From positions 1 to 64,000 of the forward strand of contig JAJRQO010000013.1 of assembly GCA_024280215.1 (NCBI GenBank): a DNA stretch of 64,000 nucleotides, written 5' to 3'. Of the stretch, positions 9,401 to 63,768 are shown in pieces (position 1 is the first letter of the stretch; every line of letters starts with the position of its first letter). The stretch is from Candidatus Zixiibacteriota bacterium. GTDB lineage: Bacteria > Zixibacteria > MSB-5A5 > GN15 > FEB-12. The translations under genes were made by a program, and so were the position numbers. The notes beneath the pieces were generated by a model. That model worked only from the letters and a program-made list of their open reading frames with translations, was not told the origin of the DNA and searched no databases.

Positions 9401-10679
9401 GAGGATTAGTATTAGAACCAACAGATAACAAAGCTGCATTTACATCAAGCAGACCATGACCATAACGGTTATCCCATCCAGCAGCACCTAAGTCTACCGT
9501 TGAATTTTCTAAAATAGCTTGAACTTCATCAGGTGTCAAAGTACCACCTGAAGCAGAGATTACTGATGCCGCAGCACCAGCAACGTGTGGACACGCCATT
9601 GATGTACCTTGATAGAAGTAATAACTGAAAGTAGAAAAATTAATACCATCATGAGTTTGTTGCAAAACTCCATCAACATACCCGTCACCATCTTGATCAA
9701 TACTTGTATCACCACCTGGAGCAGTAATATCTACTGAATCATTGTAGGTAGAATAACTTGCTAAAGTAGAATCAAAACGTACTGATGAGACAGACATACA
9801 AGCATCCAAAGCAGCAGGATACTCTAATACTCTTCGACCTGAATTACCAGCAGCACAAATAAGTATTACACCTTTGTTCTTAGCATAGTTACAAGCATCT
9901 TGAATAGTTGTAGAAAGAAAACTTGAGCCCAAACTCATGTTAATAACTTGAGCACCGTTGTCAGCAGCAAAATAGATACCATTCGCAATGACACTACTTG
10001 CTCCACTACCAGCACCATCAAGAACTTTAACAGGCATAATAGAAGCATTGTAGGCAATACCAGTAACACCAAGATTATTATTTGTAGATTGTGCGATTGT
10101 TCCAGTTACATGAGTTCCGTGACCGTTATCATCATTCGCATGTGCATCGTTGTTAATAAAATCATATCCAGCGACAAAATTAGTCTGTGCTAAATCAGGT
10201 GCTTGAGCAAATGAACCAAAATTTTCATACGCTACCCCAACGTCTAAAACTGCCACAATAACACCAGAACCAGTATTTTGATCCCATGCTTGTTCCATAT
10301 TTATCATTGGCATATGCCATTGGTATATGTAAAACGGGTCATTAGGTACTGCATAAGACCTATAGATATAATCTGGTTCAGCGTATAAAACATTTGGATC
10401 GGAAGAATATGTTGCCACCATCTCTTCAACTGTTTTATCAGCAGGGATGGAAATATATTTGAATCCTCCCCTGGCATCTTCGCCTATTACAGAACTTGAA
10501 TAACTATTGATAACTTTTGTATCATCAGTTCCAGCTCTAAATTTAACCAGAATGTGTCCCGCCACATAATCCTGTTGATTTTGTATTTGAGTAGTTTGTT
10601 TAATTTTAAAGATTGGTGCTGCTATTGCAACTGAAGTTACTAATAAAAATGAGAACAATAAAACAATGCTTTTTTTCAT
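6420..10679 (-). CDS. Secreted subtilisin-like (S8) protease with eight PKD domains and a YPNPFNP sorting domain
   Basis: This 1419-residue protein has a signal peptide (about 1-20) and a fervidolysin-like propeptide (about 35-110). The S8 domain has Asp near 145 (AVLDVGVAY), His near 187 (NGHGTHVTG) and Ser near 358 (GTSMACPHVAG). PKD domains 1-5 (WDFGDG cores) cover about 425-840. An unrecognised module of about 105 residues beginning EGFILSRNADFSTDD lies at 843-956. PKD 6-8 follow, then a second copy of that module (1211-1322) and a C-terminal sorting domain with NYPNPFNP and a final MLLLK. In known relatives this domain directs type IX secretion. Asp is followed by Val where DTG or DSG is usual. 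Its first 430 residues closely match the protease at 51.3 kb. The ribosome site is AGGAG. Confidence 0.92.
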   Translation of the reverse strand: MKKSIVLLFSFLLVTSVAIAAPIFKIKQTTQIQNQQDYVAGHILVKFRAGTDDTKVINSYSSSVIGEDARGGFKYISIPADKTVEEMVATYSSDPNVLYAEPDYIYRSYAVPNDPFYIYQWHMPMINMEQAWDQNTGSGVIVAVLDVGVAYENFGSFAQAPDLAQTNFVAGYDFINNDAHANDDNGHGTHVTGTIAQSTNNNLGVTGIAYNASIMPVKVLDGAGSGASSVIANGIYFAADNGAQVINMSLGSSFLSTTIQDACNYAKNKGVILICAAGNSGRRVLEYPAALDACMSVSSVRFDSTLASYSTYNDSVDITAPGGDTSIDQDGDGYVDGVLQQTHDGINFSTFSYYFYQGTSMACPHVAGAAASVISASGGTLTPDEVQAILENSTVDLGAAGWDNRYGHGLLDVNAALLSVGSNTNPPIADFSGTPLSGTVPLTVSFSDISTDAPTSWTWDFGDGGTSSAQNPSYTYNTSGTYTVALTATNANGSNTKTSVNYITVNPCVNPTASFSGTPTTGTEPLTVNFTDGSSGASSWNWDFGDGGTSTAQNPSYTYASAGTYTVSLTATNSCGSNTSTMTNYITVNPCVMPTAGFSGTPLSGDYPLTVSFTDGSNGAASYAWDFGDASTSTASNPSHTYTAAGTYTVSQTVTNSCGSNTSTQVNYITVTTPPCNAPVASFGGTPTTGDYPLTVSFTDGSTNTPTSWTWDFGDGGTSTTQNPSYTYNTAGTFTVSMTATNSCGSNSSTMTNYITVTTPPCNAPVASFSGSPTSGNAPLSVSFTDGSTNAPTSWTWDFGDGGTSSAQNPNYSYTVAGTYTVSMTATNSCGSNSSTMTNYITVNSGPVTGEGFILSRNADFSTDDRSFGNNETMYVKMWTDQVDFNDISRTRFELRNPNGDKVRTNLTNHFDNTYTGSFNMANLPTNDVTWDWKGEIKDNPGNRYKPTTVITITAGPPPAPVADFSASPTTGFAPLAVTFSDLSSNSPTSWAWDFGDGGTSTVQNPSHSYASAGSYTVSLTATNAGGTNTNTKVNYITANVCTLPTAGFTGTPTTGDAPLAVSFSDASTGATSWTWDFGDGGSSNAQNPNYTYATPGTYSVSLTVSNSCGNNISTMTNYITVNTPPCNPPVASFSGTPTTGNAPLNVSFSDATSNSPTSWAWDFGDGGTSNAQNPTYSYSTAGTYTVSMTASNACGTNTSTMTNYITVNAGGPVTGEGFILSRNADFSTDDRNFNNNEIMYVKLWSDVVDFNDISKARFEMKDANKNRTRINFTNNFDGSYTGQMDLMNLPSGAASWTWKGEAKDNAGNSFKPSTNVTVNMIASNGNSTLLVETFGLRQNYPNPFNPTTSVSFMLATTSTIKLEVYNTNGQKVETLASGRYSAGQHTFEFDASNLSSGVYLYKLTTDGIVETKKMLLLK
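7050..9400 (-). repeat. PKD coding repeats
   Basis: Eight in-frame units of roughly 250-260 bases encode PKD domains, in a block of five (about 8160-9400) and a block of three (about 7060-7800), separated by the unrecognised module. Neighbouring units share long near-identical stretches around the WDFGDGGTS and MTNYITV codons, which points to duplication and gene conversion. This may cause assembly or length errors in related genomes. Confidence 0.85.
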
Positions 10680-51273: not shown

Positions 51274-53685
51274 TTATTTCATCAAGACCATTTTTTTAGT
51301 ATCAACATTTTCACCAGCAGTTAAGCGGTAGAAATAGATACCAGATGGTTTTGTTGAAGCGTCCCAATTAACAACGTGGCTACCTGCTGAGAATTGACCA
51401 GCAGCTAATACGTCTACTTTTTGACCTTGAATATTAAAGACTTCAATTGTTACCTGTGTTGCTTGTGGTAAACTAAATGAAATCTCTGTTGTTGGGTTAA
51501 ATGGATTTGGATAGTTTTGGTTTAAACCAAATGTACCAGGAATTGCAAATTCAACTGCATTTCCATCACTAAATACAACTCCACTTTCACAAGCTTTAGT
51601 CACGAGATTTGATGCTGGCTCATAGGAGTTAGATGCATGAGTTACATTTGTTACCTCAAAACACCATTCTCCAACGGCTCTTTTTATTTTTGCTGTAGCA
51701 AAAGTAATTGTTCCATCTGTACCAGTTACTCCCGAATTTGAACCAGACGATGGACCATCATAGACTACACTAACTGTTGCATTTGCCAAAGGTTGAGAAG
51801 CATTATCATAAATTGTAACTGTACAATAACCAGTAGAGTTTATCCCTTGAGACGCACGAGTTACAACTATATTCTGTACATACATTGTTCCACCAACAGG
51901 TGGGTCTGTTACGACAATATAGTCTACTATTGTTTTTGTGTCAGAACCATAAGCATTTGTGGCAGTCATTGCGACTGTATACGTACCAGCGGTCGTATAT
52001 GTATATAGTGGATTTTGAGATGTTGATGTTCCACCATCACCAAAGGTCCAACTCCATGATGTTGGAGCGTTGGTTGATAAGTCAGTAAAGTTGACATTTA
52101 AAGGTGCATCACCAGATGTCGGAGTTCCTGAGAAATTAGCAACAGGAGGATCGTTTGCTGGAGCAGTTGCTGTAATATAGCCAACTTTTGTATCAGCATC
52201 CGACCCAAAAGCATTAGTTGCTGTTAATGTTACAGTATATGTACCAGCAACTGAATATGTGTATGATGGATTTTGAGCTGTTGAAGTACCACCATCACCA
52301 AATGTCCAACTCCATGATGTTGGAGAGTTTGTTGATTGGTCAGTAAAAGTAACATTCAAAGGAACATCACCTGATGTTGGAGTTCCTGAAAATGCAGCAA
52401 CAGGAGGATCATTACTTGGAGTTACTAATAATAGAGCAGCATTCGCATCAAGAATACCATACCCATATTCTTCATCCCAACCAACAGGTCCCATATCTAC
52501 AGCTGAGTTTTCTAAAATAGTTTGAACTTCATCAGGTGTCAAAGTACCACCAGATGCTGAAATAACTAAAGCCGCAACACCAGCAACATGTGGAGAAGCC
52601 ATTGAAGTACCTTGATAGAAATAATAACTAAAAGTAGTATAGTTGGAACCATCATGAGTTTGTTGTAAAACGCCGTCAATATATCCGTCGCCATCTTGAT
52701 CAACAGATGTATCTCCACCTGGAGCAGCTATATCAACAGAATCATTATAAGTTGAGTAACTTGTTATAGCAGCATCATAACGTACAGCACCAACAGAAAC
52801 ACATGATTCATAGGCGGCTGGATATTCTAATACTCTACGACCAGAGTTACCAGCAGCACAAATAATTGTAACACCTTTGCTCTTGGCATAGATACATGCA
52901 TCGTTCATAGTAGTTGAGAAATATGTAGAACCTAAACTCATATTAATAACTTTGGCACCATTGTCAGCGGCATAATATATACCATTGGCAATACCATCGG
53001 TAGCTCCAGAACCAGAAGCATCTAAAACTTTCACAGGCATTATAGAACAATCAAAAGCAATACCAGTTACACCTAAATTATTATTTGTAGACTGTGCGAT
53101 CGTACCAGCAACATGTGTTCCGTGACCATTATCATCATTTGGATGAGTATCGTTGTTTATGAAATCATAGCCTTGTACAAAATTTGTTTGTGCCAAATCT
53201 GGAGCCTGAGCATAGATATCATAATCTTCATAGGCAACACCAGCATCTAAAATAGCGACAATAACACCAGCACCTGTGTTTTGATCCCATGCTTGTTCCA
53301 TATTAATCATAGGCATATGCCATTGATATACATAATAAGGATCGTTTGGAACCATATATGATGTATAAATATAGTTTGGCTCAGCATATAAAACATTTGG
53401 ATTTGAAGAATACTCTGATACCATTTGTTCAACTGTTTTATCTGCTGGAATTGCAATATGTTTATATCCACCTCGTGCGTTACCTTCTATAGTAGCACAA
53501 CCGAGTCCTTGGATTGCTTTAGAATCATCAAATCCTTCACGAAATTTGACTAAAATTTGACCAGGTACAAAATCTTGACCTATTTGAACATTTGCTTGAG
53601 TTTTAATTTTAAAAGATGGTGAGGCAAGTACAACTGATGACATTAATAATGCACTAATGATTAGTAAGGTTAAAACTTTTTTCAT
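51274..53685 (-). CDS. Secreted subtilisin-like protease with two PKD domains and a YPNPFNP sorting domain
   Basis: This 803-residue protein has a signal peptide, a propeptide (about 35-110) and an S8 domain with Asp near 143 (AILDAGVAY), His in NGHGTHVAG and Ser near 358 (GTSMASPHVAG). An EF-hand-like DQDGDGYIDG insert lies within it. Two PKD domains (WTFGDGG) cover about 425-600, then come an Ig-like domain (about 605-715) and the NYPNPFNP C-terminal sorting domain ending MVLMK. The N-terminal 430 residues closely match the 1419-residue protease at 6.4 kb, and the C-terminal half matches the 903-residue protease at 54.0 kb, so it looks like a mosaic of both. An AGGAGGTG element lies 66 bases ahead of the start. 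Confidence 0.92.
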   Translation of the reverse strand: MKKVLTLLIISALLMSSVVLASPSFKIKTQANVQIGQDFVPGQILVKFREGFDDSKAIQGLGCATIEGNARGGYKHIAIPADKTVEQMVSEYSSNPNVLYAEPNYIYTSYMVPNDPYYVYQWHMPMINMEQAWDQNTGAGVIVAILDAGVAYEDYDIYAQAPDLAQTNFVQGYDFINNDTHPNDDNGHGTHVAGTIAQSTNNNLGVTGIAFDCSIMPVKVLDASGSGATDGIANGIYYAADNGAKVINMSLGSTYFSTTMNDACIYAKSKGVTIICAAGNSGRRVLEYPAAYESCVSVGAVRYDAAITSYSTYNDSVDIAAPGGDTSVDQDGDGYIDGVLQQTHDGSNYTTFSYYFYQGTSMASPHVAGVAALVISASGGTLTPDEVQTILENSAVDMGPVGWDEEYGYGILDANAALLLVTPSNDPPVAAFSGTPTSGDVPLNVTFTDQSTNSPTSWSWTFGDGGTSTAQNPSYTYSVAGTYTVTLTATNAFGSDADTKVGYITATAPANDPPVANFSGTPTSGDAPLNVNFTDLSTNAPTSWSWTFGDGGTSTSQNPLYTYTTAGTYTVAMTATNAYGSDTKTIVDYIVVTDPPVGGTMYVQNIVVTRASQGINSTGYCTVTIYDNASQPLANATVSVVYDGPSSGSNSGVTGTDGTITFATAKIKRAVGEWCFEVTNVTHASNSYEPASNLVTKACESGVVFSDGNAVEFAIPGTFGLNQNYPNPFNPTTEISFSLPQATQVTIEVFNIQGQKVDVLAAGQFSAGSHVVNWDASTKPSGIYFYRLTAGENVDTKKMVLMK

Positions 53686-54005: not shown

Positions 54006-56717
54006 CTATTTCATCAGTATCATCTTTTTAGTATCAACATTTTCACCAGCAATTAAGCGATAGAAATAAATACCTGATGGTTTCGTTGAGGCATCCCAAG
54101 TAACAATATGAGATCCAGCAGAGAAAGAACCTGCTGCTAATATATCTACTTTTTGACCTTTGATATTAAAGACTTCAAGAGTCACTTCAGATGCTTGTGG
54201 CAAGCTAAATGAAATTTCAGTTGAAGGATTAAATGGATTTGGATAATTTTGATTTAATCCAAATGTACCAGGTATTCCTAATACAATAGCATCACCATTA
54301 GCAAATACAACTCCGCTTTCACATGCTTTAGTCACATGATTATCACCTGAAGAATATGAATTTGATGCGTGAGTTATATTCGTTACTTCAAAACACCATT
54401 CTCCTGATGGATTTTTTATCTTAGCAGTATTAAATGAAACTACACCATTTGCATCTGTTGCAGCAGTAGCTGTACCACCAGTTGGTCCAGTTGCTAATAC
54501 AGTTACAGAAGCATTGGCAAGAGGTTGCTCGTTGGAATCATTAATAATAATCGTACCAACACCGTTTCTATTCGGACCTTTTGATGCACGAGTAACAGCA
54601 ATTGACTCAACATGCATGGTACCACCAACTGGTGGAGTATTAACTGTAATATAGTTAGTGGCAGTCTTTGTATCATTTCCAAATGCATTTGTTGCTGTTA
54701 AAGATACAGTATATGTACCAGCAGTTGTATATGTATATGATGGGTTCTGAGCAGAAGAAGTGCCACCATCACCGAATGTCCAACTCCACGATGATGGAGT
54801 ATTAGTTGATAAATCTGTAAAGTTCACAACTAATGGGGCATCACCTGATGTTGGTGTACCAGAAAAATCAGCAACTGGCGGGTTCGCTGATGGTTGTGTT
54901 GCGTTTATATACCCGACTTTTGTGTTGGTATCATTCCCATTCGCATTTGTCGCTGTAAGTGATACGGTATATGTACCAGCAACAGTATAAGTATGTGATG
55001 GATTTTGAGCTGATGAAGTTCCACCATCTCCAAATGTCCAACTCCAAGAAGTAGGTCCATTAGTTGATTGGTCAGTAAAATTAACAGCTAAGTTAATGTC
55101 ACCTGATGTAGGAGAACCAACAAATCCGGCGGTTGGTGGATTCGTATTTGGTCCCGCAGCATCCATAGCAGCTCTAACGTCAACAATACCAACACCAACA
55201 TTTTTAGACATGTTGTATGCTTTTGCATTTTGCATAATTAAATCAATTTTATCTTGAGCGGTAAGAGACTGATCAAAAGATTCTAACAAACCAATTACAC
55301 CAGCAACATGTGGAGCCGCCATTGAAGTTCCATCTAAGACAGAGATATAATCATTTGCTGGATCGGTGTTTACATGATAAGTCGAAAGAATTTCTACTCC
55401 CGGAGCAGCAATATCAACCCATGAGCCATAGTTTGAAAATGATGCTGGATCACCAAATTTATCTGTCGCCCCGACATCAACACAATCACCACGACTACCT
55501 AAATAGTCAGCAGAAGAAGAATTTGAGTTACCAGCAGCAACTACAATTACAACATCTTGCGATAAAAGAAAATCAACTGCAGCACCTAAACCACCAGTGT
55601 TAGAAGAACCCCATGAGCAGTTAATTGATGCAACATTAATACCTGATGCTTTTAAATTGCCAAGATAATTCATTGCTTCGGCAGCAGCAGACATCATAAC
55701 AAAACCTGATTCTTGCCCTCTGTATCTTCCTGTATATCCTATACGACATGGTACAATCTTTACACCATTGGCTATACCACCTGCTGTACCGTCGGAAAAT
55801 CCACCCGCAACTCCAGCAACTTGAGTACCGTTGTTAGTAATCGCACCAATCGTACCGGCTACATGAGTACCATGACCATTATGATCGGCAGGATCATTAT
55901 CTTTGCCACCACAATCAGTATCTGTACAACTAACACCAGAATATCCAGATTCAAAAAAATCATATCCGATTACATCATCAATATAACCATTACCGTCATT
56001 ATCGATTCCATCACCTGGGGTTTCACCTGGGTTTGTCCAGATATTACCATTAGTTACATTGTCAGCTGGCCCAGGTACATCAGAACCACCAAGGTCACGG
56101 TGATAATGACGAACACCTGAGTCTAAAACGCCAACAACAACTGTTGCATCACCAGCTGTTGAATTCCAAGCTGTTTCTGCATTAATACCATAGGTATCCC
56201 AATAATGCCACTGGTTAAATTGGAAATCAGGATTTGCTAAACCATCATAGTATGTATCATTGGCAGCAGCATATAGTTTATGAATCGCATCTTTTTCTAC
56301 ATGGTCAACTTGAGGTAAGGCTTCATACGCAGTTACAACTTCGTCTAAAACTCCATTGTTAAATTCTACAACATAATACCTTGAAAGGACTGCGAGTTCT
56401 TTTGAGGATGTCGCCGATGACATACTTTGTACATCAGTACCTTTAAACATCGGACGTAATTCGTGTACTTGAAATTTTTGTGCTAAGGCAGAAAAGCCAT
56501 CAAGACTATTTAATGCTACAGAAGAACTATTATCTTTTGCATGGTTAACCAATGTGCCTTCGCTTAAGACAACTATAACTCTATTTTCAACATAACCAAC
56601 AAATGACGAGCCATCAAAAACATTAGCTTGTTGGTCGACTGCTATAAATTTTTCAGCTTGTACTAATCCTGAGATTAGTAATGAAAGAGCAAGAACAAAG
56701 GTGATAATTCGTTTCAT
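54006..56717 (-). CDS. Secreted subtilisin-like protease with two PKD domains and a YPNPFNP sorting domain
   Basis: This 903-residue protein has a signal peptide, a propeptide with a different N-terminus from the other two, and an S8 domain with Asp near 197 (GVLDSGVRH), His near 282 (NGHGTHVAG) and Ser near 464 (GTSMAAPHVAG). A calcium-rich insert (DGIDNDGNGYID) and a Cys-containing loop (CTDTDCGG) lie before the His. Two PKD domains (about 530-700), an Ig-like domain and the NYPNPFNP sorting domain ending MILMK follow. It shares the tail module, not the protease core, with the 51.3 kb gene. The ribosome site is AGGAGG. It ends the transcription unit begun upstream or is separate; a terminator at 56.9 kb separates it from the CHAT operon. 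Confidence 0.92.
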   Translation of the reverse strand: MKRIITFVLALSLLISGLVQAEKFIAVDQQANVFDGSSFVGYVENRVIVVLSEGTLVNHAKDNSSSVALNSLDGFSALAQKFQVHELRPMFKGTDVQSMSSATSSKELAVLSRYYVVEFNNGVLDEVVTAYEALPQVDHVEKDAIHKLYAAANDTYYDGLANPDFQFNQWHYWDTYGINAETAWNSTAGDATVVVGVLDSGVRHYHRDLGGSDVPGPADNVTNGNIWTNPGETPGDGIDNDGNGYIDDVIGYDFFESGYSGVSCTDTDCGGKDNDPADHNGHGTHVAGTIGAITNNGTQVAGVAGGFSDGTAGGIANGVKIVPCRIGYTGRYRGQESGFVMMSAAAEAMNYLGNLKASGINVASINCSWGSSNTGGLGAAVDFLLSQDVVIVVAAGNSNSSSADYLGSRGDCVDVGATDKFGDPASFSNYGSWVDIAAPGVEILSTYHVNTDPANDYISVLDGTSMAAPHVAGVIGLLESFDQSLTAQDKIDLIMQNAKAYNMSKNVGVGIVDVRAAMDAAGPNTNPPTAGFVGSPTSGDINLAVNFTDQSTNGPTSWSWTFGDGGTSSAQNPSHTYTVAGTYTVSLTATNANGNDTNTKVGYINATQPSANPPVADFSGTPTSGDAPLVVNFTDLSTNTPSSWSWTFGDGGTSSAQNPSYTYTTAGTYTVSLTATNAFGNDTKTATNYITVNTPPVGGTMHVESIAVTRASKGPNRNGVGTIIINDSNEQPLANASVTVLATGPTGGTATAATDANGVVSFNTAKIKNPSGEWCFEVTNITHASNSYSSGDNHVTKACESGVVFANGDAIVLGIPGTFGLNQNYPNPFNPSTEISFSLPQASEVTLEVFNIKGQKVDILAAGSFSAGSHIVTWDASTKPSGIYFYRLIAGENVDTKKMILMK

Positions 56718-56893: not shown

Positions 56894-56930
56894 AAAAAAA
56901 GCCCCTGTTATCTTAAATTATCAGGGGCTT
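56894..56930 (-). terminator. Terminator of the sigma/CHAT/subtilase operon
   Basis: AGCCCCTG pairs with CAGGGGCT over an AT-rich extension, with a minus-strand T run. It lies about 22 bases past the stop of the last gene of the operon and separates it from the PKD subtilase gene to the left. Confidence 0.88.
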
Positions 56931-56952
56931 TGCGTAATTCGTTGTGGGTATG

Positions 56953-58416
56953 CTATTTGGTAGCGTCACCAGATTTGTAACACGGTTTAAATTCACGCCA
57001 TTTAACGAAAATATGGTGAACCATTATAGCAATATCTGACGGTTTTGCATCTCCGTCACAATCAAGATCAACCAATGCGTCCGTTACGATATTTCCTTGA
57101 CGCTCAATTGATTCAGAATTATTTCCACCTCCATTATTATTCCTATTTGTAATATAATCAATCATCATAGTTAGGTCACGGATATCACGAACACCATCGC
57201 CATTTAAATCTCCAATAGAAAGTTGCGAGACAGCATTATAACTATTAATCATACCATAACCATATTGCACATCAGGGATTATCACATTACCCCATAAAAG
57301 TTCTGTACGAGTTGTATTTTTCAGATGCTCTTTAAAGTCAGCAGGAGTGTAGTTACTTTCAATTTGTTTCATCATCGCAACGGTTCCACTCACAATTGGT
57401 GCGGAAAATGAAGTACCACTCCATGTTCCCCAATTAAATTCACCAGCCAATGAAGAATACATATTCACACCAGGTGCGACAACATCGACATAATCACCAT
57501 AGTTAGAAAAACCTGCTAAAAGCTCTAAAGTATCAATAGCGGCAACAGCAATAACATCAGGGTGGGCAGCTGGAAAATATGGTAAGTCACTACTTTCATT
57601 GCCAGTTGCGGCAATCATAACCACATTGTTAAGAGTAGCATCGTCAATTGCTGATTGTAAGACATCAATCAATTCAGTCGTACCAAAACTCATATTGATA
57701 ATATCGGCACCATGCTTGACCGCCCAGTCAATTGCTTTGGCAACATTAAATTGGTCACCAACACCTTCCCCATCAAAAGCACGCAATGGCATGATTGAAG
57801 CATCAGGTGCTGTCAGAAGGAGTAGTCCTGTAACAAAAGTACCATGCCCATATATTGAGCCAGCTTGTTCAGATGGATTGGATGTATTTAAAATAAAATC
57901 ATGTCCTGGTAAAACAGTAGAACTAATCATAAGAGGATGCGAATAATCTATGCCATTATCAATCACGGCAATAACAACATTTTTACCCGTCGCAATTAGC
58001 TGGGCATCATCGATGCCTAAATCATAAGAACCAGCTTGCCCATAAAAATCAACAGGTGATACACTTTTATTTAAAATTGGTTCCGATTCATCGGGAAAGC
58101 CCTGACTGATTTGAAATACTTCAGGAATATCAATTGAAGAATTAAAAGAAGCTAACTCAACATCATTGTATGAGTTTAATTGTGCAACGACTTTATCAAC
58201 AGAACGATTTTTAGAAAATTTCATTAAGAAAGTTCTATTAGTTGTAATTGAGTCTGAAACTATAAGTTGCAACTCTGCCGCAATAGCAGTTACATTTGCA
58301 TTTGCCTTAACTTTGACAACTGCTTCACCTAATTTTTTCCCCCCAGCATTTACTACGGTAATACCAAAAAGAATAAAGATGGCAATCAAAGTGGTTTTTT
58401 TCAAATATCGTTTCAT
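56953..58416 (-). CDS. Secreted subtilisin-like protease with dockerin-like tail, last gene of the sigma/CHAT operon
   Basis: This 487-residue protein has a signal peptide (cleavage near VNA), a propeptide (about 30-110) and an S8 domain with Asp near 150 (AVIDNGIDY), His near 190 (YGHGTFVTG) and Ser near 335 (SGTSFSAPIVSG). The tail (about 395-480) has DLNGDGVRDIRDL and DLDCDGDAKPSDI calcium loops of dockerin type, separated by an Asn/Gly linker. It has no PKD or YPNPFNP domain, unlike the other subtilases. It starts 29 bases past the CHAT gene stop, so it is probably its cotranscribed output: an extracellular protease controlled by the sigma factor of the same operon. Confidence 0.92.
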   Translation of the reverse strand: MKRYLKKTTLIAIFILFGITVVNAGGKKLGEAVVKVKANANVTAIAAELQLIVSDSITTNRTFLMKFSKNRSVDKVVAQLNSYNDVELASFNSSIDIPEVFQISQGFPDESEPILNKSVSPVDFYGQAGSYDLGIDDAQLIATGKNVVIAVIDNGIDYSHPLMISSTVLPGHDFILNTSNPSEQAGSIYGHGTFVTGLLLLTAPDASIMPLRAFDGEGVGDQFNVAKAIDWAVKHGADIINMSFGTTELIDVLQSAIDDATLNNVVMIAATGNESSDLPYFPAAHPDVIAVAAIDTLELLAGFSNYGDYVDVVAPGVNMYSSLAGEFNWGTWSGTSFSAPIVSGTVAMMKQIESNYTPADFKEHLKNTTRTELLWGNVIIPDVQYGYGMINSYNAVSQLSIGDLNGDGVRDIRDLTMMIDYITNRNNNGGGNNSESIERQGNIVTDALVDLDCDGDAKPSDIAIMVHHIFVKWREFKPCYKSGDATK

Positions 58417-58445
58417 TTTTTCACTCTATACTTTGACGGTTAAAA

Positions 58446-61199
58446 TTAATTTCCAATTAAAATAAAGGCACCCCAATATGCAGGGTCTTGTACATGTTTT
58501 GCAATATAATGTATTGCTTTTTTATATGCTTTTTCAATGTTCTTCTTTTGAGAGAGTTGATGATAGAACTCGTTCATAAATAGCATGGTCACCTTGTCAT
58601 CAACTGGCCATAAAGAAGCAAGTACGTATCTACACCCTCCTCGATAAAATGATTTTGCCAAAGAAAATGTATTACCATAGTTTAACCCTGGAGCAGCAGT
58701 TTGGCAACCAGAAAGTGTTACTAACTCAGCCTTGATTCCGTGACCATATAAATCGAAAGGAAACAAAACTCCGTCGGTCATCATTATCCGTGAGAACAAA
58801 GGGTTCTCTGAAGATCTCGAAGCATGTGCAGCAATATGAATAAATCCATTCACTTCAGAGCATGCTTTTTTTAATGTAGTAATTTTCGCATCCTGATTAG
58901 CGTAAAGATTTGAGTTTTTGAAATGTTGCTGAATCTTCTCACCTTCTATTTCTACCAATGGAAGTGATTCATGTGATGCTGAGAAAATTGCATTTTTAAG
59001 TTTTGAAAAATCTATTTTTTCGATTGTATCACCATGCAATGATTGAGGGTCGGCGATAATATTTATATTATAGTCCTCATACATGTATACCTTATCATTA
59101 TTAAGCAGGGCAATAAACGGTACTTGATTCAAGACAGCATCTGGAATAATAAAAAGCGAATCTACATGCGAAGAAATATTTGCAGGAGCAATAAGAGCAT
59201 TATACATCTCTTGCAAATATGCATTTTTAATTTCAGATACATTTTCAGAGCTGGGTTTGTGGATTGACTGTTCAAAAATAAATTGAATTTTTCTTACTAA
59301 AGCAGTGAGTTCAGCAAGAGTAAGTGGTAAGTTGACATATTTCACCGAAAGAGCATCCTGAACAAAAAGACCAATTTTATCACCTGAGATGAAATAATTT
59401 AATATAGTTTCATTCTCTTTAAGCGATATGTTCTTTTGTTGTTCTTTTGATTGGAGTTCAATAGGAAAGATATTTTTTTGATAGGCTCTTGCTTTTTGCT
59501 CTAAATGCCACAATTGTTTTTCAGTTTTTAAAACAACTTGCGAGGTAAGTACGAGACGTTTTCCCTTTTGAGGAAATTTATATGCTTGGGATAAATTTTG
59601 TCTGAGAGAATCTATCTGAGTCAGAATTATTTTTGGGACATTCTCTTGTAAAATTTCCGTTGGTATAATTTTTTCATTCAACAATGAAATTGCTTTGAGA
59701 TTATAAAGATATGATTGTTCAATTTCACCAATATATAATGAACACTCAACAATGCGAGCGTATATATTAAATTTATCGGCAGCAAAGAAAAATTTGATTT
59801 CGTCTGAGTGCAAAGCGTGCATCATCGTTTCAACAATTTTCACCGCTTTTAAAAATTCGGACTGTGCCTTGTCATACAATTTTTGAGCAAAGTAATGTTC
59901 ACCCAAAAGTGTGTAAATTTTTCTTTGTTGCTCGTTGGTTAGCTTGTTTGTTAATAACGAGCTGAGTACCTTGAATGCTTTTGTTTCATTTCTCGTGAGG
60001 AAGAGTGTCTCAATATATGCGATGTCTGCGTCATGTTCCCGTCTGATATCTTTACTTTTCTTATAATATTTTTTCGCTGAGACAGATGCTTCCAACGCTT
60101 TTCTGTATTTTTTCTGATTGAGAAAAATTGAAGTCATAGCGTATTCAATCATCCCCAACCATAAACTATTTTTTTCTTTTATGAAAATTTTCTTAGCCGA
60201 ATTCAGTAATAGTTTTGATTGTGTTATATCGCCAAGCTCGATTTTAGCAATTGCAGCGAAATAATTCGCTTTGCCCTCTTCATAAGGCATGTTATATTTC
60301 TTGAAAATTGGAAGAATCAATTCTGAAAGCATGATAACGGAACCATACTGGTTCAACTGTAAATTCAATTCTGCTAAATCAAGTTGTGTGACCGCAACCG
60401 CTGTCTTGTCACCAAGCTTCTCAAAAGAATCATATACTTTTTCAAAAAGTGAAAGAGCGTCGGTATATTTACTTTCCAGATATAGCAAATAGGCAATCGA
60501 GTATTCTGTTTGTTGAAAGGCAAGTTCCATCTTTGCTTTTTTATAAAATGCACCCGCCTCAAGATAAAGTTTTTTCGCTTGACCAAGTTCATTCATATTG
60601 GCGTAAATATTAGCACGGTTAAAATCGACAATAGCACAAGCAACTCCACCCTCTTTTGCAAATATTTTTTTAGCCTTATTATAGTATTCAAGAGCGAGTC
60701 TATTTTTATCCATACGATGATATATGTTACCAATGTTGGTCATAACCTGACCAGCATGATTTGATAAATCATGTCGTTTAAAATACGTAAGTGCTTTTTT
60801 GCCAATTTTAAGACCATCGTCATATTTAGACAGATACATATATACTTCAATCATACCTTTTTGGATTAATGCGGTCGAATAATAATCTTTATGAGTAGAT
60901 GTAGATGTGAGTGCTTTTTGGTAAAAAGTTATAGACGTTTTATAGTCAGCATTCCAAAGAGCGAGCCGAGCATGCATTGAAAAAAGTTTGTGATTGTACT
61001 CTTTTGGAATAAATTTGAAACAGTTTTTGATAACAAACAGATACGCATCAGCATCTTTGATACTTTTACGATAAAGCTGATTTAAACTCCGACTTATTTC
61101 CAAGATCATGAGATTGTAATCATCGTTATAATCGTCATGCAACAGCTGTTGTAAATCAACTTTGCTTTGTATCTGTTTGAGTCTCTCTATTTTAATCAT
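58446..61199 (-). CDS. TPR-CHAT caspase-like protease
   Basis: This 917-residue protein has no signal peptide, so it is cytoplasmic. Residues about 80-500 form many tetratricopeptide helices (for example GQVMTNIGNIYHRMDKNRLALEYYNKA), an assembly or sensing platform. The C-terminal CHAT domain (about 600-917) has LFIIPDAVLNQVPFIAL, the catalytic His in HIAAHAS near 789, Cys in LSGCQTAAPG near 831, and the conserved CRYVLASLWPVDDKV. Both catalytic residues are intact. CHAT proteases are caspase relatives; TPR-CHAT proteins such as Csx29 cut a partner when activated. Its start overlaps the anti-sigma-like gene by four bases. The physiological substrate is unknown. Confidence 0.92.
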   Translation of the reverse strand: MIKIERLKQIQSKVDLQQLLHDDYNDDYNLMILEISRSLNQLYRKSIKDADAYLFVIKNCFKFIPKEYNHKLFSMHARLALWNADYKTSITFYQKALTSTSTHKDYYSTALIQKGMIEVYMYLSKYDDGLKIGKKALTYFKRHDLSNHAGQVMTNIGNIYHRMDKNRLALEYYNKAKKIFAKEGGVACAIVDFNRANIYANMNELGQAKKLYLEAGAFYKKAKMELAFQQTEYSIAYLLYLESKYTDALSLFEKVYDSFEKLGDKTAVAVTQLDLAELNLQLNQYGSVIMLSELILPIFKKYNMPYEEGKANYFAAIAKIELGDITQSKLLLNSAKKIFIKEKNSLWLGMIEYAMTSIFLNQKKYRKALEASVSAKKYYKKSKDIRREHDADIAYIETLFLTRNETKAFKVLSSLLTNKLTNEQQRKIYTLLGEHYFAQKLYDKAQSEFLKAVKIVETMMHALHSDEIKFFFAADKFNIYARIVECSLYIGEIEQSYLYNLKAISLLNEKIIPTEILQENVPKIILTQIDSLRQNLSQAYKFPQKGKRLVLTSQVVLKTEKQLWHLEQKARAYQKNIFPIELQSKEQQKNISLKENETILNYFISGDKIGLFVQDALSVKYVNLPLTLAELTALVRKIQFIFEQSIHKPSSENVSEIKNAYLQEMYNALIAPANISSHVDSLFIIPDAVLNQVPFIALLNNDKVYMYEDYNINIIADPQSLHGDTIEKIDFSKLKNAIFSASHESLPLVEIEGEKIQQHFKNSNLYANQDAKITTLKKACSEVNGFIHIAAHASRSSENPLFSRIMMTDGVLFPFDLYGHGIKAELVTLSGCQTAAPGLNYGNTFSLAKSFYRGGCRYVLASLWPVDDKVTMLFMNEFYHQLSQKKNIEKAYKKAIHYIAKHVQDPAYWGAFILIGN

Positions 61200-61783
61200 A
61201 ATGTCAGTTCAATAAGTCCCTCTTTAGAATCATTCTTCATAATATATAGAGAATTCTTGCCTATCGCAATTCGTTCAAATCGAAATAATCCAAATTTATC
61301 CACCGACGTATTCTGATTTTTCTTTTTTGTCTCAACAGTTACTGAAAACTCCTCATAGGAATCAAGTCCTTCAATTTGACCGATGAGTTCGACTGAATCA
61401 ACAGTAATCGGATACATCTTCAATTCAATTACAAGTTCACCTATTCGATACTTGAGTTGTCTGGTATCAACTGAGGCTGGCCTTATACCCTCAGGTAATG
61501 GCAGGAGTGATGAATCAAAAAGCTGTATTCCATATTGTAGTTTGTCAGATGCTTGATTTTTCAGAAAATCTTGATACAGTTTTTGAGAGAGTTTTTGAGT
61601 TGCTGAAATAATCGGTTTTGAGCCATGCCCTGAAATTGCCGACATATCTTTCAACATATCGTACATTTCAGCCAGTTCTGGAACCTGTTGCATCTCAGCA
61701 ACAAGAGCTTTTTCCTCAATTCCCGTTAGAGAGCCACTCAATAAAGCAATGAGTCGCTCAATTCTTTCTTGATTTACTTTCAT
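61196..61783 (-). CDS. Putative anti-sigma-like partner protein
   Basis: This 195-residue protein has no membrane segment. The N-terminal ~65 residues are helical (RIERLIALLSGSLTGIEEKAL, MYDMLKDM), in the size and place of a sigma-binding domain, without the zinc HxxxCxxC motif of classic anti-sigma factors. The middle is a linker. About residues 110-190 look like a beta sandwich (ELVIELKMYPITVDSVELIGQI). It sits between an ECF sigma gene and a TPR-CHAT gene and overlaps the latter by four bases. By analogy with Csx30, it may bind the sigma factor and be cut by the CHAT protease; this is inference. The ribosome site AGAGGTG is good. Confidence 0.65.
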   Translation of the reverse strand: MKVNQERIERLIALLSGSLTGIEEKALVAEMQQVPELAEMYDMLKDMSAISGHGSKPIISATQKLSQKLYQDFLKNQASDKLQYGIQLFDSSLLPLPEGIRPASVDTRQLKYRIGELVIELKMYPITVDSVELIGQIEGLDSYEEFSVTVETKKKNQNTSVDKFGLFRFERIAIGKNSLYIMKNDSKEGLIELTL

Positions 61784-61834
61784 TTAGCACCTCTGACTTC
61801 TAAGAGACATAACTTAAGGAGAAAATACATACTA

Positions 61835-62428
61835 TTATTTAAAACCTTTTCTTTTTAAGATTTTTTTTAATTTTTTCAGACTCCGAATTCGTGTCGGTCC
61901 AATAGATGCAATCGGGATGTTCAATTTTTTTGAAATCTCTTCATAGCTTGGTTCATTCTCATCTAAAAACAAGTGCCAAATTAACTTATACTCTTTTTGC
62001 GGAAGCTCTATGATTGCTTTAATTAGACCTTCTAAGTTTTCGGACTCATTGAGAATCTCATCTGGAGTCTTAAATGTTGTCACAGATATAGATTTAGATA
62101 TTTCAGGGTCAACGGTATCAAAAAGTTGTTTTCGACGAATGACTCTCAATATCTCTCTACGTGTAATAGTAGATACATAGCTAATTATTTTTTCAGAAGA
62201 TTTAAGATTTGACAGATTCTGTAGAAGGAGATAGCAAACCTGTCCAAAAATATCTAATGACTCTTCTTTAGACAACCGCATTAAACGACAAACAGATAAA
62301 ATAGCAGGAGTTATTTTTTCGACTAAATTTGCCCACGCAGATTCATCGCCGTCAATACAACGTTTAATAAGTTCTTGATATTCTGATTTGTTTGTCTTTG
62401 TCATTGTTGAATAGTGGTTACTGTTCAT
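61835..62428 (-). CDS. ECF sigma factor
   Basis: This 197-residue protein has sigma region 2 at about 25-100 (CIDGDESAWANLVEKIT, RREILRVIRRK) and region 4 at about 140-195 (PSYEEISKKLNIPIASIGPTRIRSLKKLKKI). Region 3 is absent, as in all ECF sigmas. The IPIASIGPTR motif in region 4 is typical of a group of sigma factors often found beside CHAT-type genes. A second Met nine codons later is possible; neither start has a strong ribosome site. It is the first gene of the operon and would direct RNA polymerase to its own and perhaps other promoters. Confidence 0.9.
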   Translation of the reverse strand: MNSNHYSTMTKTNKSEYQELIKRCIDGDESAWANLVEKITPAILSVCRLMRLSKEESLDIFGQVCYLLLQNLSNLKSSEKIISYVSTITRREILRVIRRKQLFDTVDPEISKSISVTTFKTPDEILNESENLEGLIKAIIELPQKEYKLIWHLFLDENEPSYEEISKKLNIPIASIGPTRIRSLKKLKKILKRKGFK

Positions 62429-62499
62429 ATAAAAGTGAAAACGCTCTTATATTAAAGTAATTGATTTCAAAAAAAAGACAACTGAAATTATCTTGTGAG

Positions 62500-63768
62500 T
62501 TATCTTTTCCGATTAAATGGCATCGTCATACATCTTGCTCCACCTCGCCCACGAGATAGTTCAGCACCACTTAATGTGATAAGTGTTTTGTCCAAAAACT
62601 CGACATCTGTTTTTAAAAATTCTTTTGGTGAAACTATCGCATATCCAATATCTTTGAATGCTTTAATTGTCTGAATATTTCGTTCATAGATAAACGCAAC
62701 TCTTGGAAGTACAGCAAACAGATTGGCACCATCGGTCCATTGTTCACGTGTTTGATAATGTGGAATATCACCACCGCATGGGATTCGATTGGTAAATCCA
62801 TAACCTAATCGTTCTAATGAAGAAAATATCGTGGCTGGTGATGATTCATGAACTAATTTAACTTTCCCATTAACTAATTCATAGGTGAAACATGGACATC
62901 TAAGCGAGCTTTCTTCTTCTGAAAAGAAACGAGGATAATAAACACAGTCATCTTCCCCTATAATAGTGAAGACGGTATCAAGATGCATCGTCGCTCGGTC
63001 GGCTGGCATCTTTACTTTAATGATTCTTTTAACAATCTGTTCATCAAGCAATCTCTTGGTGAGTAACTCAATAGCAATATCAGTGGTTCGTTCTGAAGAA
63101 CCAATCAATAATGTCTCATGGTCAACTGCTATCATATCACCCCCCTCAAGATGTACATTATCAGGCAAGCCATGCTTCGTGGCATCATCTAAGATATCGA
63201 TAATTTCGATATCTTTAAAAAGAGGATGGTTCCGAAAGATATAACGTGCCAAAAGTCCTTCACGACGTCTGACAGATTTTGCAGGATGGCTGAGTATGAC
63301 CGCATCATTAAAAAACATACCAATGTCACGTGTAAATAAAAGGTTCGGCGTTGGTGGAAACAAAACTTTGTAAACTTCGTGTTCTTTATCTTCAGGTTTA
63401 TAAGCACCTGCGACCATGAGTTCGGCGAGTTCTTTTTGAGTGAATTCATCGGAAAGCATAAGATCGTGCGTTTTTATACCTACCCCTTCCAGTGCAGAGA
63501 TTGCTCCAACTATATCAGAGCGGATTTCACGGTCTCCCAAAATATCAGAAAGTAAATCAACAAACTCAACAACAGAATCAGAACCAACGGCATGTTGTAT
63601 ACAAGAGGTAAACTCGGCATGATCGGCAGCAGCATCTTCTGTGAAGAGCACATCTTCAATAAGATATTTTTCCTGCATGTTATGTTCAACAGTGACTAAG
63701 TTCCACTCATATCCAGGTCGATGAACGACAACATTTTTGAGTGGGTGATATTCTGAGCGTATAGACAT
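62500..63768 (-). CDS. arcA: Arginine deiminase
   Basis: This 422-residue enzyme converts arginine to citrulline and ammonia. It has the family motifs FTRDIGMFFNDAVILS, HLEGGDMI near 207, HLDTVFTII near 261 and the catalytic Cys near 412 in RGGARCMTMPFNRK. Length matches. An AGAAGGAA site precedes the start. No arcB, arcC or arginine/ornithine antiporter gene is adjacent, so pathway context is missing; it could serve arginine catabolism or acid tolerance. Confidence 0.95.
   Translation of the reverse strand: MSIRSEYHPLKNVVVHRPGYEWNLVTVEHNMQEKYLIEDVLFTEDAAADHAEFTSCIQHAVGSDSVVEFVDLLSDILGDREIRSDIVGAISALEGVGIKTHDLMLSDEFTQKELAELMVAGAYKPEDKEHEVYKVLFPPTPNLLFTRDIGMFFNDAVILSHPAKSVRRREGLLARYIFRNHPLFKDIEIIDILDDATKHGLPDNVHLEGGDMIAVDHETLLIGSSERTTDIAIELLTKRLLDEQIVKRIIKVKMPADRATMHLDTVFTIIGEDDCVYYPRFFSEEESSLRCPCFTYELVNGKVKLVHESSPATIFSSLERLGYGFTNRIPCGGDIPHYQTREQWTDGANLFAVLPRVAFIYERNIQTIKAFKDIGYAIVSPKEFLKTDVEFLDKTLITLSGAELSRGRGGARCMTMPFNRKR

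Follow-up and report, generated by a model that had tools for sequence, protein, structure and literature searches.

Removal of an anti-sigma factor by proteolysis is a known principle, exemplified by SigW and RsiW, where the inhibitor is a membrane protein that is removed by PrsW, RasP and ClpXP. A related logic operates in type III-E CRISPR systems, in which CHAT cleavage of the sigma-bound inhibitor Csx30 has been shown experimentally (PMC10028731, PMC9729208). A third relevant group is the ECF54 sigma factors of Actinobacteria, for whose gene neighborhoods a summary (PMC8999054, citing Casas-Pastor 2021 and Huang 2015) lists carboxypeptidase, subtilase and CHAT proteins. In the same summary, ECF54 is said to be without an anti-sigma factor and regulation by proteolysis is proposed (PMC8999054).

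The locus considered here lies in a stretch of 64,000 nucleotides (the window) from a Candidatus Zixiibacteriota genome assembly of 3.03 Mb. Four genes on the minus strand are encoded in the order ECF sigma factor, a 195-residue protein that we call p195, TPR-CHAT protease and S8 subtilase, followed by a terminator:

61835..62428, minus strand: ECF sigma factor, 197 aa (TIGR02937, 1.1e-16; SigW chain of 5WUQ, 6.7e-06)
61196..61783, minus strand: p195, putative soluble anti-sigma-like protein with zinc ligands lost and candidate CHAT substrate, 195 aa (conserved family; AF2 model; profile matches)
58446..61199, minus strand: TPR-CHAT protease, 917 aa (Pfam CHAT, 3.3e-43)
56953..58416, minus strand: exported S8 subtilase with a prodomain and a C-terminal dockerin-like region, 487 aa (Peptidase_S8, 9.2e-46)
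56894..56931, minus strand: Rho-independent terminator with a 10-bp stem and T-run (dG -16.4 kcal/mol, z -3.9)

By ORF coordinates, 51 nt separate sigma from p195, p195 and CHAT overlap by 4 nt, and 29 nt separate CHAT from S8. Terminator-like matches inside the operon are weak (5, versus 2.7 +/- 1.9 in shuffles). A first-pass annotation of this DNA had described the same layout, gaps and one terminator, all of which we reproduced, the terminator being strong, and its proposal that the four genes form a single operon is supported. An arginine-deiminase-like gene (62500-63768, minus strand) sits 71 bp upstream on the same strand; at the congener locus L024 a gene of similar size takes that position, 10 bp before sigma, and it is absent in L021 and L022. 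Directly downstream are two more secreted subtilases (51274-53685 and 54006-56717, minus strand) with PKD repeats and T9SS sorting tails. Of the 10 S8 domains in the genome, these two and the operon S8 account for 3, all within about 6 kb, and a fourth S8 domain occurs in the window at 9453-10271. Extra S8 genes are also found near many related quartets (L022, L030, L033, L039, L085).

Relatives of p195 are present at the genus, family and order level, those with a name being Candidatus Zixiibacteriota MAGs. Within the phylum, the p195 profile has a match in about half of the 132 genomes, the weakest of these matches spanning the N-terminal domain only. Our first survey comprised 52 p195 loci, including the window itself re-fetched, and represents about 50 distinct Zixibacteria loci. 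CHAT is encoded downstream of p195 in 52/52 of these. Sigma is upstream in 49/52, the other three being one locus with sigma in an overlapped frame (L044) and two cut by a contig edge, and S8 follows CHAT in 43/52, the remaining nine being cut at a contig or fetch edge. The order sigma, p195, CHAT, S8 is kept across Zixibacteria wherever contigs reach. Using a profile built on the Zixibacteria loci, we found the identical order in at least three other phyla (L107, L109 with sigma in frame 1, L132-L135, L139, L141-L146 and L150), while the rest of the loci from other phyla are cut by contig ends. Because the quartet recurs in the same order in Zixibacteria and beyond, the arrangement is far outside what chance would produce, which answers the concern, raised in the first-pass annotation, that the operon might not be conserved elsewhere. 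The 4-nt overlap of p195 and CHAT is seen in 43 of the 77 pairs called, a count that includes duplicates. Over 42 complete quartets, the pairwise distances of each of the four proteins correlate with those of the others at r 0.85-0.91 (permutation maximum 0.21), indicating that the proteins travel as a unit, with shared ancestry accounting for part of the correlation. The four genes are passed on together by vertical descent and occur in several copies per genome, unlike a patchy, mobile element.

A few loci depart from this organization. At L040 (8087-13884) the CHAT gene is divergent and sigma, p195 and S8 are still together, so that the order is broken and the components are kept. At L140 a second sigma-p195 pair lies between CHAT and S8. 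At L110 (1042-6724, minus strand), sigma, p195 and CHAT are followed by three secreted proteins with T9SS tails (BNR/sortilin-like, PD40 and DUF3160) and no S8, a replacement suggesting that the output gene may be exchangeable.

The sigma factor matches the sigma70-ECF model, and its best and only PDB match is the SigW chain of the SigW-RsiW complex; its closest relatives among plasmid records are actinobacterial. The TPR-CHAT protein carries TPR_12 repeats and the sole CHAT domain of the source genome. A single-sequence phmmer search with it returned TPR matches only, while the CHAT profile matches the Craspase TPR-CHAT/Csx29 structures at 4.5e-15. His788, His792 and Cys832 are invariant, and the His792/Cys832 dyad is present in 46/46 proteins:

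58824..58826, minus strand: CHAT His792 codon, catalytic dyad (invariant 46/46)
58704..58706, minus strand: CHAT Cys832 codon, catalytic dyad (invariant 46/46)

The protease is thus intact, as initially annotated. The catalytic residues named at that time, His789 and Cys831, need correction: positions 789 and 831 are Ile and Gly, so the catalytic mutants proposed on that basis would miss.

We found no match to p195 in Pfam, NCBIfam or PADLOC, and no transmembrane segment in p195 (maximum KD19 1.24) or in any family member examined. The AF2 model (pLDDT 89.6) consists of four helices, an extended stretch at residues 91-107 and a beta-sandwich at residues 108-194, from which we delineated three regions:

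61550..61771, minus strand: p195 residues 5-78, putative four-helix anti-sigma-type domain (AF2 helices 5-16, 21-33, 35-51 and 56-78; HxxxCxxC located there in sister clades)
61460..61516, minus strand: p195 residues 90-108, extended hinge DSxxxPxPxGxRxxxxxxR, a possible site of cleavage or recognition (conservation; extended in the model, at lower confidence)
61202..61462, minus strand: p195 residues 108-194, Ig/CarboxypepD_reg-like beta-sandwich (model strands; CarboxypepD_reg in relatives; weak fold matches)

The N-terminal region has the trait of class I anti-sigma factors (ASDI), an approximately 80-aa helical domain encoded beside the cognate ECF sigma gene. The HxxxCxxC motif of the zf-HC2 subtype is absent from the window's p195, as the first-pass annotation had observed. 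The family comprises three subgroups, and the window's subgroup is without the zinc ligands. In a sister subgroup with the same operon, HxxxCxxC is at the expected place in 13/15 members, and it is also present in p195 of other phyla, where the L107 protein exceeds the curated zf-HC2 cutoff (25.6 vs 22.2 bits). Searching the PDB with the p195 family profile gave matches to RsiW (0.046), RslA (0.059) and DdvA (1.0), individually weak and all over the N-terminal domain; anti-sigma factors are three of the five PDB matches. We also modeled sigma and p195 as one fused chain, translating the stops that lie in frame between the two genes as Gln (NCBI table 6). The model has a pTM of 0.67 and carries no interface score, and a fold search with it showed no anti-sigma-bound sigma shape. 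Judged from its sequence, p195 is very probably a soluble class I anti-sigma factor whose zinc ligands were lost in the window's clade. The profile matches and zinc-bearing homologs supply homology evidence for the earlier suggestion that p195 inhibits the sigma factor. The SigW-RsiW complex (5WUQ) provides the nearest solved structures for both proteins, but RsiW is membrane-bound, whereas p195 is soluble, is without a zinc site and has a beta-sandwich tail.

CarboxypepD_reg was matched by 6/43 family members (best 1.8e-05), and a fold search with p195 returned Ig/FN3-like matches only, all weak. In an alignment of 43 sequences no columns other than D90, S91 and R101, all in the hinge, are invariant; P95, G99 and R108 are nearly so, and the hinge D, S and R are invariant across phyla too. 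An extended, invariant linker between a putative sigma-binding domain and a tail resembles a protease target, though its conservation could reflect contact with sigma rather than cleavage.

We modestly favor reading the whole quartet as a cytoplasmic protease-gated sigma switch. The N-terminal class I anti-sigma domain of p195, recognized by profile and model, would hold the ECF sigma factor. The TPRs of TPR-CHAT would receive a cytoplasmic cue, with the His792/Cys832 dyad as the presumed enzyme. On this cue, CHAT would cut p195, a step that we consider likely; the most likely site is the invariant hinge that joins the anti-sigma domain to the beta-sandwich. The freed sigma factor would then transcribe its targets, which in related lineages probably include its own operon, an ECF-type promoter being found there and not in the window. 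The last product of the operon, a protease with a signal peptide, would go outside the cytoplasm as a putative output. Alternatively, p195 could be an anti-sigma factor that is released by signal binding or conformational change, with CHAT cutting another target or serving as a non-cleaving partner-switch adaptor. Conformational change is a common response of soluble zinc anti-sigma factors (PMC8999054), and the zinc site, a typical redox sensor, is kept in sister clades. We regard this alternative as unlikely: a mere adaptor would not need catalytic residues, yet the dyad is invariant in all 46 proteins; the zinc site is lost in the window's clade and the hinge is nonetheless invariant; and the substrates of CHAT proteases are commonly the products of neighboring genes (PMC9729208).

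The protease-gated switch that we favor shares with CASP a TPR-CHAT protease with a homologous CHAT domain, an ECF sigma factor and a putative sigma-binding inhibitor. It differs in that p195 has 195 aa and no detectable similarity to the 565-aa Csx30, that the operon adds an S8 protease, that Cas7-11/RAMP is missing here, and that a crRNA target is excluded as the activating cue. No RAMP protein (PF03787; Cas7-11/gRAMP) was matched in the genome, which is 96% complete, in line with the initial annotation that no cas gene is present. Searched against the PDB at E<=10, the p195 profile did not match any Csx30 chain, and the parallel to Csx30 drawn in that annotation was not borne out by similarity. 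From the missing RAMP protein and the missing homology to Csx30 we conclude that the window's system is not a member of CASP. Two candidate identifications were rejected: p195 as a Csx30 homolog, for want of a profile match, and the locus as a defense island, since PADLOC gave one generic subtilase model and otherwise weak matches, and a RAMP protein was not found. The homology of CHAT to Csx29-type TPR-CHAT, and a sigma/inhibitor/protease logic in common with CASP, would suit a quartet that serves as a module against phage or for programmed death, in the manner of type III-E CASP or bacterial gasdermin systems. Such a role seems distinctly improbable, given that the source genome has no RAMP/Cas protein match, that PADLOC yields, besides that generic subtilase model (1.1e-21), weak hits to IetS and SAVED_CHAT only, that inheritance is vertical and multicopy, and that the final gene encodes an exported protease and no toxin or nuclease.

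Besides its peptidase domain, the S8 protein has a Fervidolysin_NPro-like prodomain (2.8e-05) and a weak C-terminal Dockerin_1 match (4e-3), and its catalytic triad D153/H191/S336 is invariant in 55/55 proteins. Its N-terminus is a predicted signal peptide:

58345..58416, minus strand: S8 signal peptide MKRYLKKTTLIAIFILFGITVVNA (seen by inspecting the sequence; nearly every family member has a hydrophobic N-terminus)

In Zixibacteria the S8 C-termini vary between dockerin-like and T9SS-type, and elsewhere some S8 proteins have a lipobox. A hydrophobic signal in nearly all members combined with variable C-termini suggests that an extracytoplasmic destination is constant while the mode of anchoring changes. 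In Nonomuraea and Miltoncostaea, however, the adjacent S8 has no evident signal peptide, and the ancestral role of S8 may therefore not be secretion. This weakens the reading of S8 as the output of the switch, which we consider about evenly balanced with a slight lean in favor. S8 could also be part of the signaling chain itself, for example as a sensor or as a second protease in a cascade: it is linked as tightly as the other three genes, and the seemingly signal-less actinobacterial proteins could act on cytoplasmic partners. A place in the chain is nonetheless rather improbable, both because S8 carries a signal peptide and a dockerin-like or T9SS-type C-terminus in the window and in nearly all Zixibacteria, with a lipobox in some S8 proteins elsewhere, and because the operon has no membrane-spanning partner able to relay an outside signal inward. 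In another phylum, a cohesin-domain protein (3e-14) is encoded directly after the S8 gene (L107, 4150-5553, minus strand); the Zixibacteria S8 proteins have dockerin-like tails.

The quartet is close to ECF54 as far as the neighborhood description in PMC8999054 allows the two to be likened: both combine an ECF sigma factor with genes for CHAT and S8 proteins and, probably, for a small protein of CarboxypepD_reg type. Against that description, the window's p195 has a class I anti-sigma-like domain (profile, model and zinc-bearing homologs), its S8 is an exported protein and its genes stand in another order. A tblastn search with sigma identified an actinobacterial relative in Nonomuraea gerenzanensis (L173, 5610-8021) with the order S8-sigma-p195-like and CHAT nearby on the opposite strand. 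Its sigma factor is 32% identical to the window's, and its p195-like protein (152 aa; about 1e-6 against the p195 profile) has retained the YDS hinge and the last helix, with the first three helices missing. This protein thus differs from p195 in appearing to be without an anti-sigma domain apart from the last helix and hinge. The 'carboxypeptidase' named in the summarized ECF54 literature is probably a CarboxypepD_reg-type beta-sandwich protein, which in this branch forms the anti-sigma tail.

Going by the same summary, the association of sigma, CHAT and subtilase is already known in outline from Actinobacteria; since these neighborhoods and regulation by proteolysis have been proposed (PMC8999054), the first-pass description of an undescribed circuit is too strong. 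What is new is that the module is much wider than Actinobacteria and, probably, that the 'carboxypeptidase' is the p195-type beta-sandwich protein and that p195 in Zixibacteria and other phyla has a complete anti-sigma domain. More tentatively, at slightly less than an even balance, these loci may form a family of caspase-like switches that spans several phyla and works independently of CRISPR: TPR-CHAT would cleave the soluble anti-sigma factor at its invariant hinge, and the co-encoded exported protease would be the output. If so, the family would be a free-living counterpart, and possibly the ancestral stock, of the Csx29-Csx30-CASP-sigma circuit, ECF54-type sigma factors would have an anti-sigma factor after all, and caspase-type anti-sigma proteolysis would be a general mode of bacterial signaling rather than a CRISPR oddity. 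CHAT proteases are common in bacteria and, to our knowledge, few have a known substrate; the module offers one candidate, which is encoded next door and has one conserved hinge. The ECF literature, as represented in that summary, would also need correcting on the 'carboxypeptidase' neighbor of such sigma factors.

Upstream of sigma in the window we noted one candidate element:

62454..62481, minus strand: TTGTC-N17-TACTTT, candidate promoter of housekeeping or ECF type, 25 nt upstream of the start codon of sigma (same element in congeners L021 and L022)

Across four congeners this element is not enriched genome-wide over a reversed control. An ECF-type motif upstream of sigma was not found in Zixibacteria, where dyad counts and Gibbs sampling were no better than shuffles, or marginal; the same Gibbs sampler recovers AGGTG/TGATAC in another phylum. 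A housekeeping-like TTG-N17-20-TAnnTT pattern precedes 27/65 sigma genes and 76/331 control genes, and since it is enriched in both it is not specific to sigma. In the other phylum, AGGTG-N16-TGATAC is directly upstream of sigma in 7/7 genomes searched. It occurs 21 times in those genomes, the reversed pattern twice, and a pair at the sigma locus makes up 14 of the 21 occurrences. This supports autoregulation and a small regulon in that phylum, and for the window it would apply by analogy only. The original claim that sigma drives the operon thus gains an ECF-type promoter in relatives from another phylum and finds no such motif in Zixibacteria. The second member of the pair lies antisense at the sigma 3' end in all 7 genomes (L131 1809-1835, plus strand; L132 10045-10071, plus strand; also L133-L136 and L108). 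Its nucleotides are conserved even where the codons differ, and it is a possible antisense promoter or second regulatory site.
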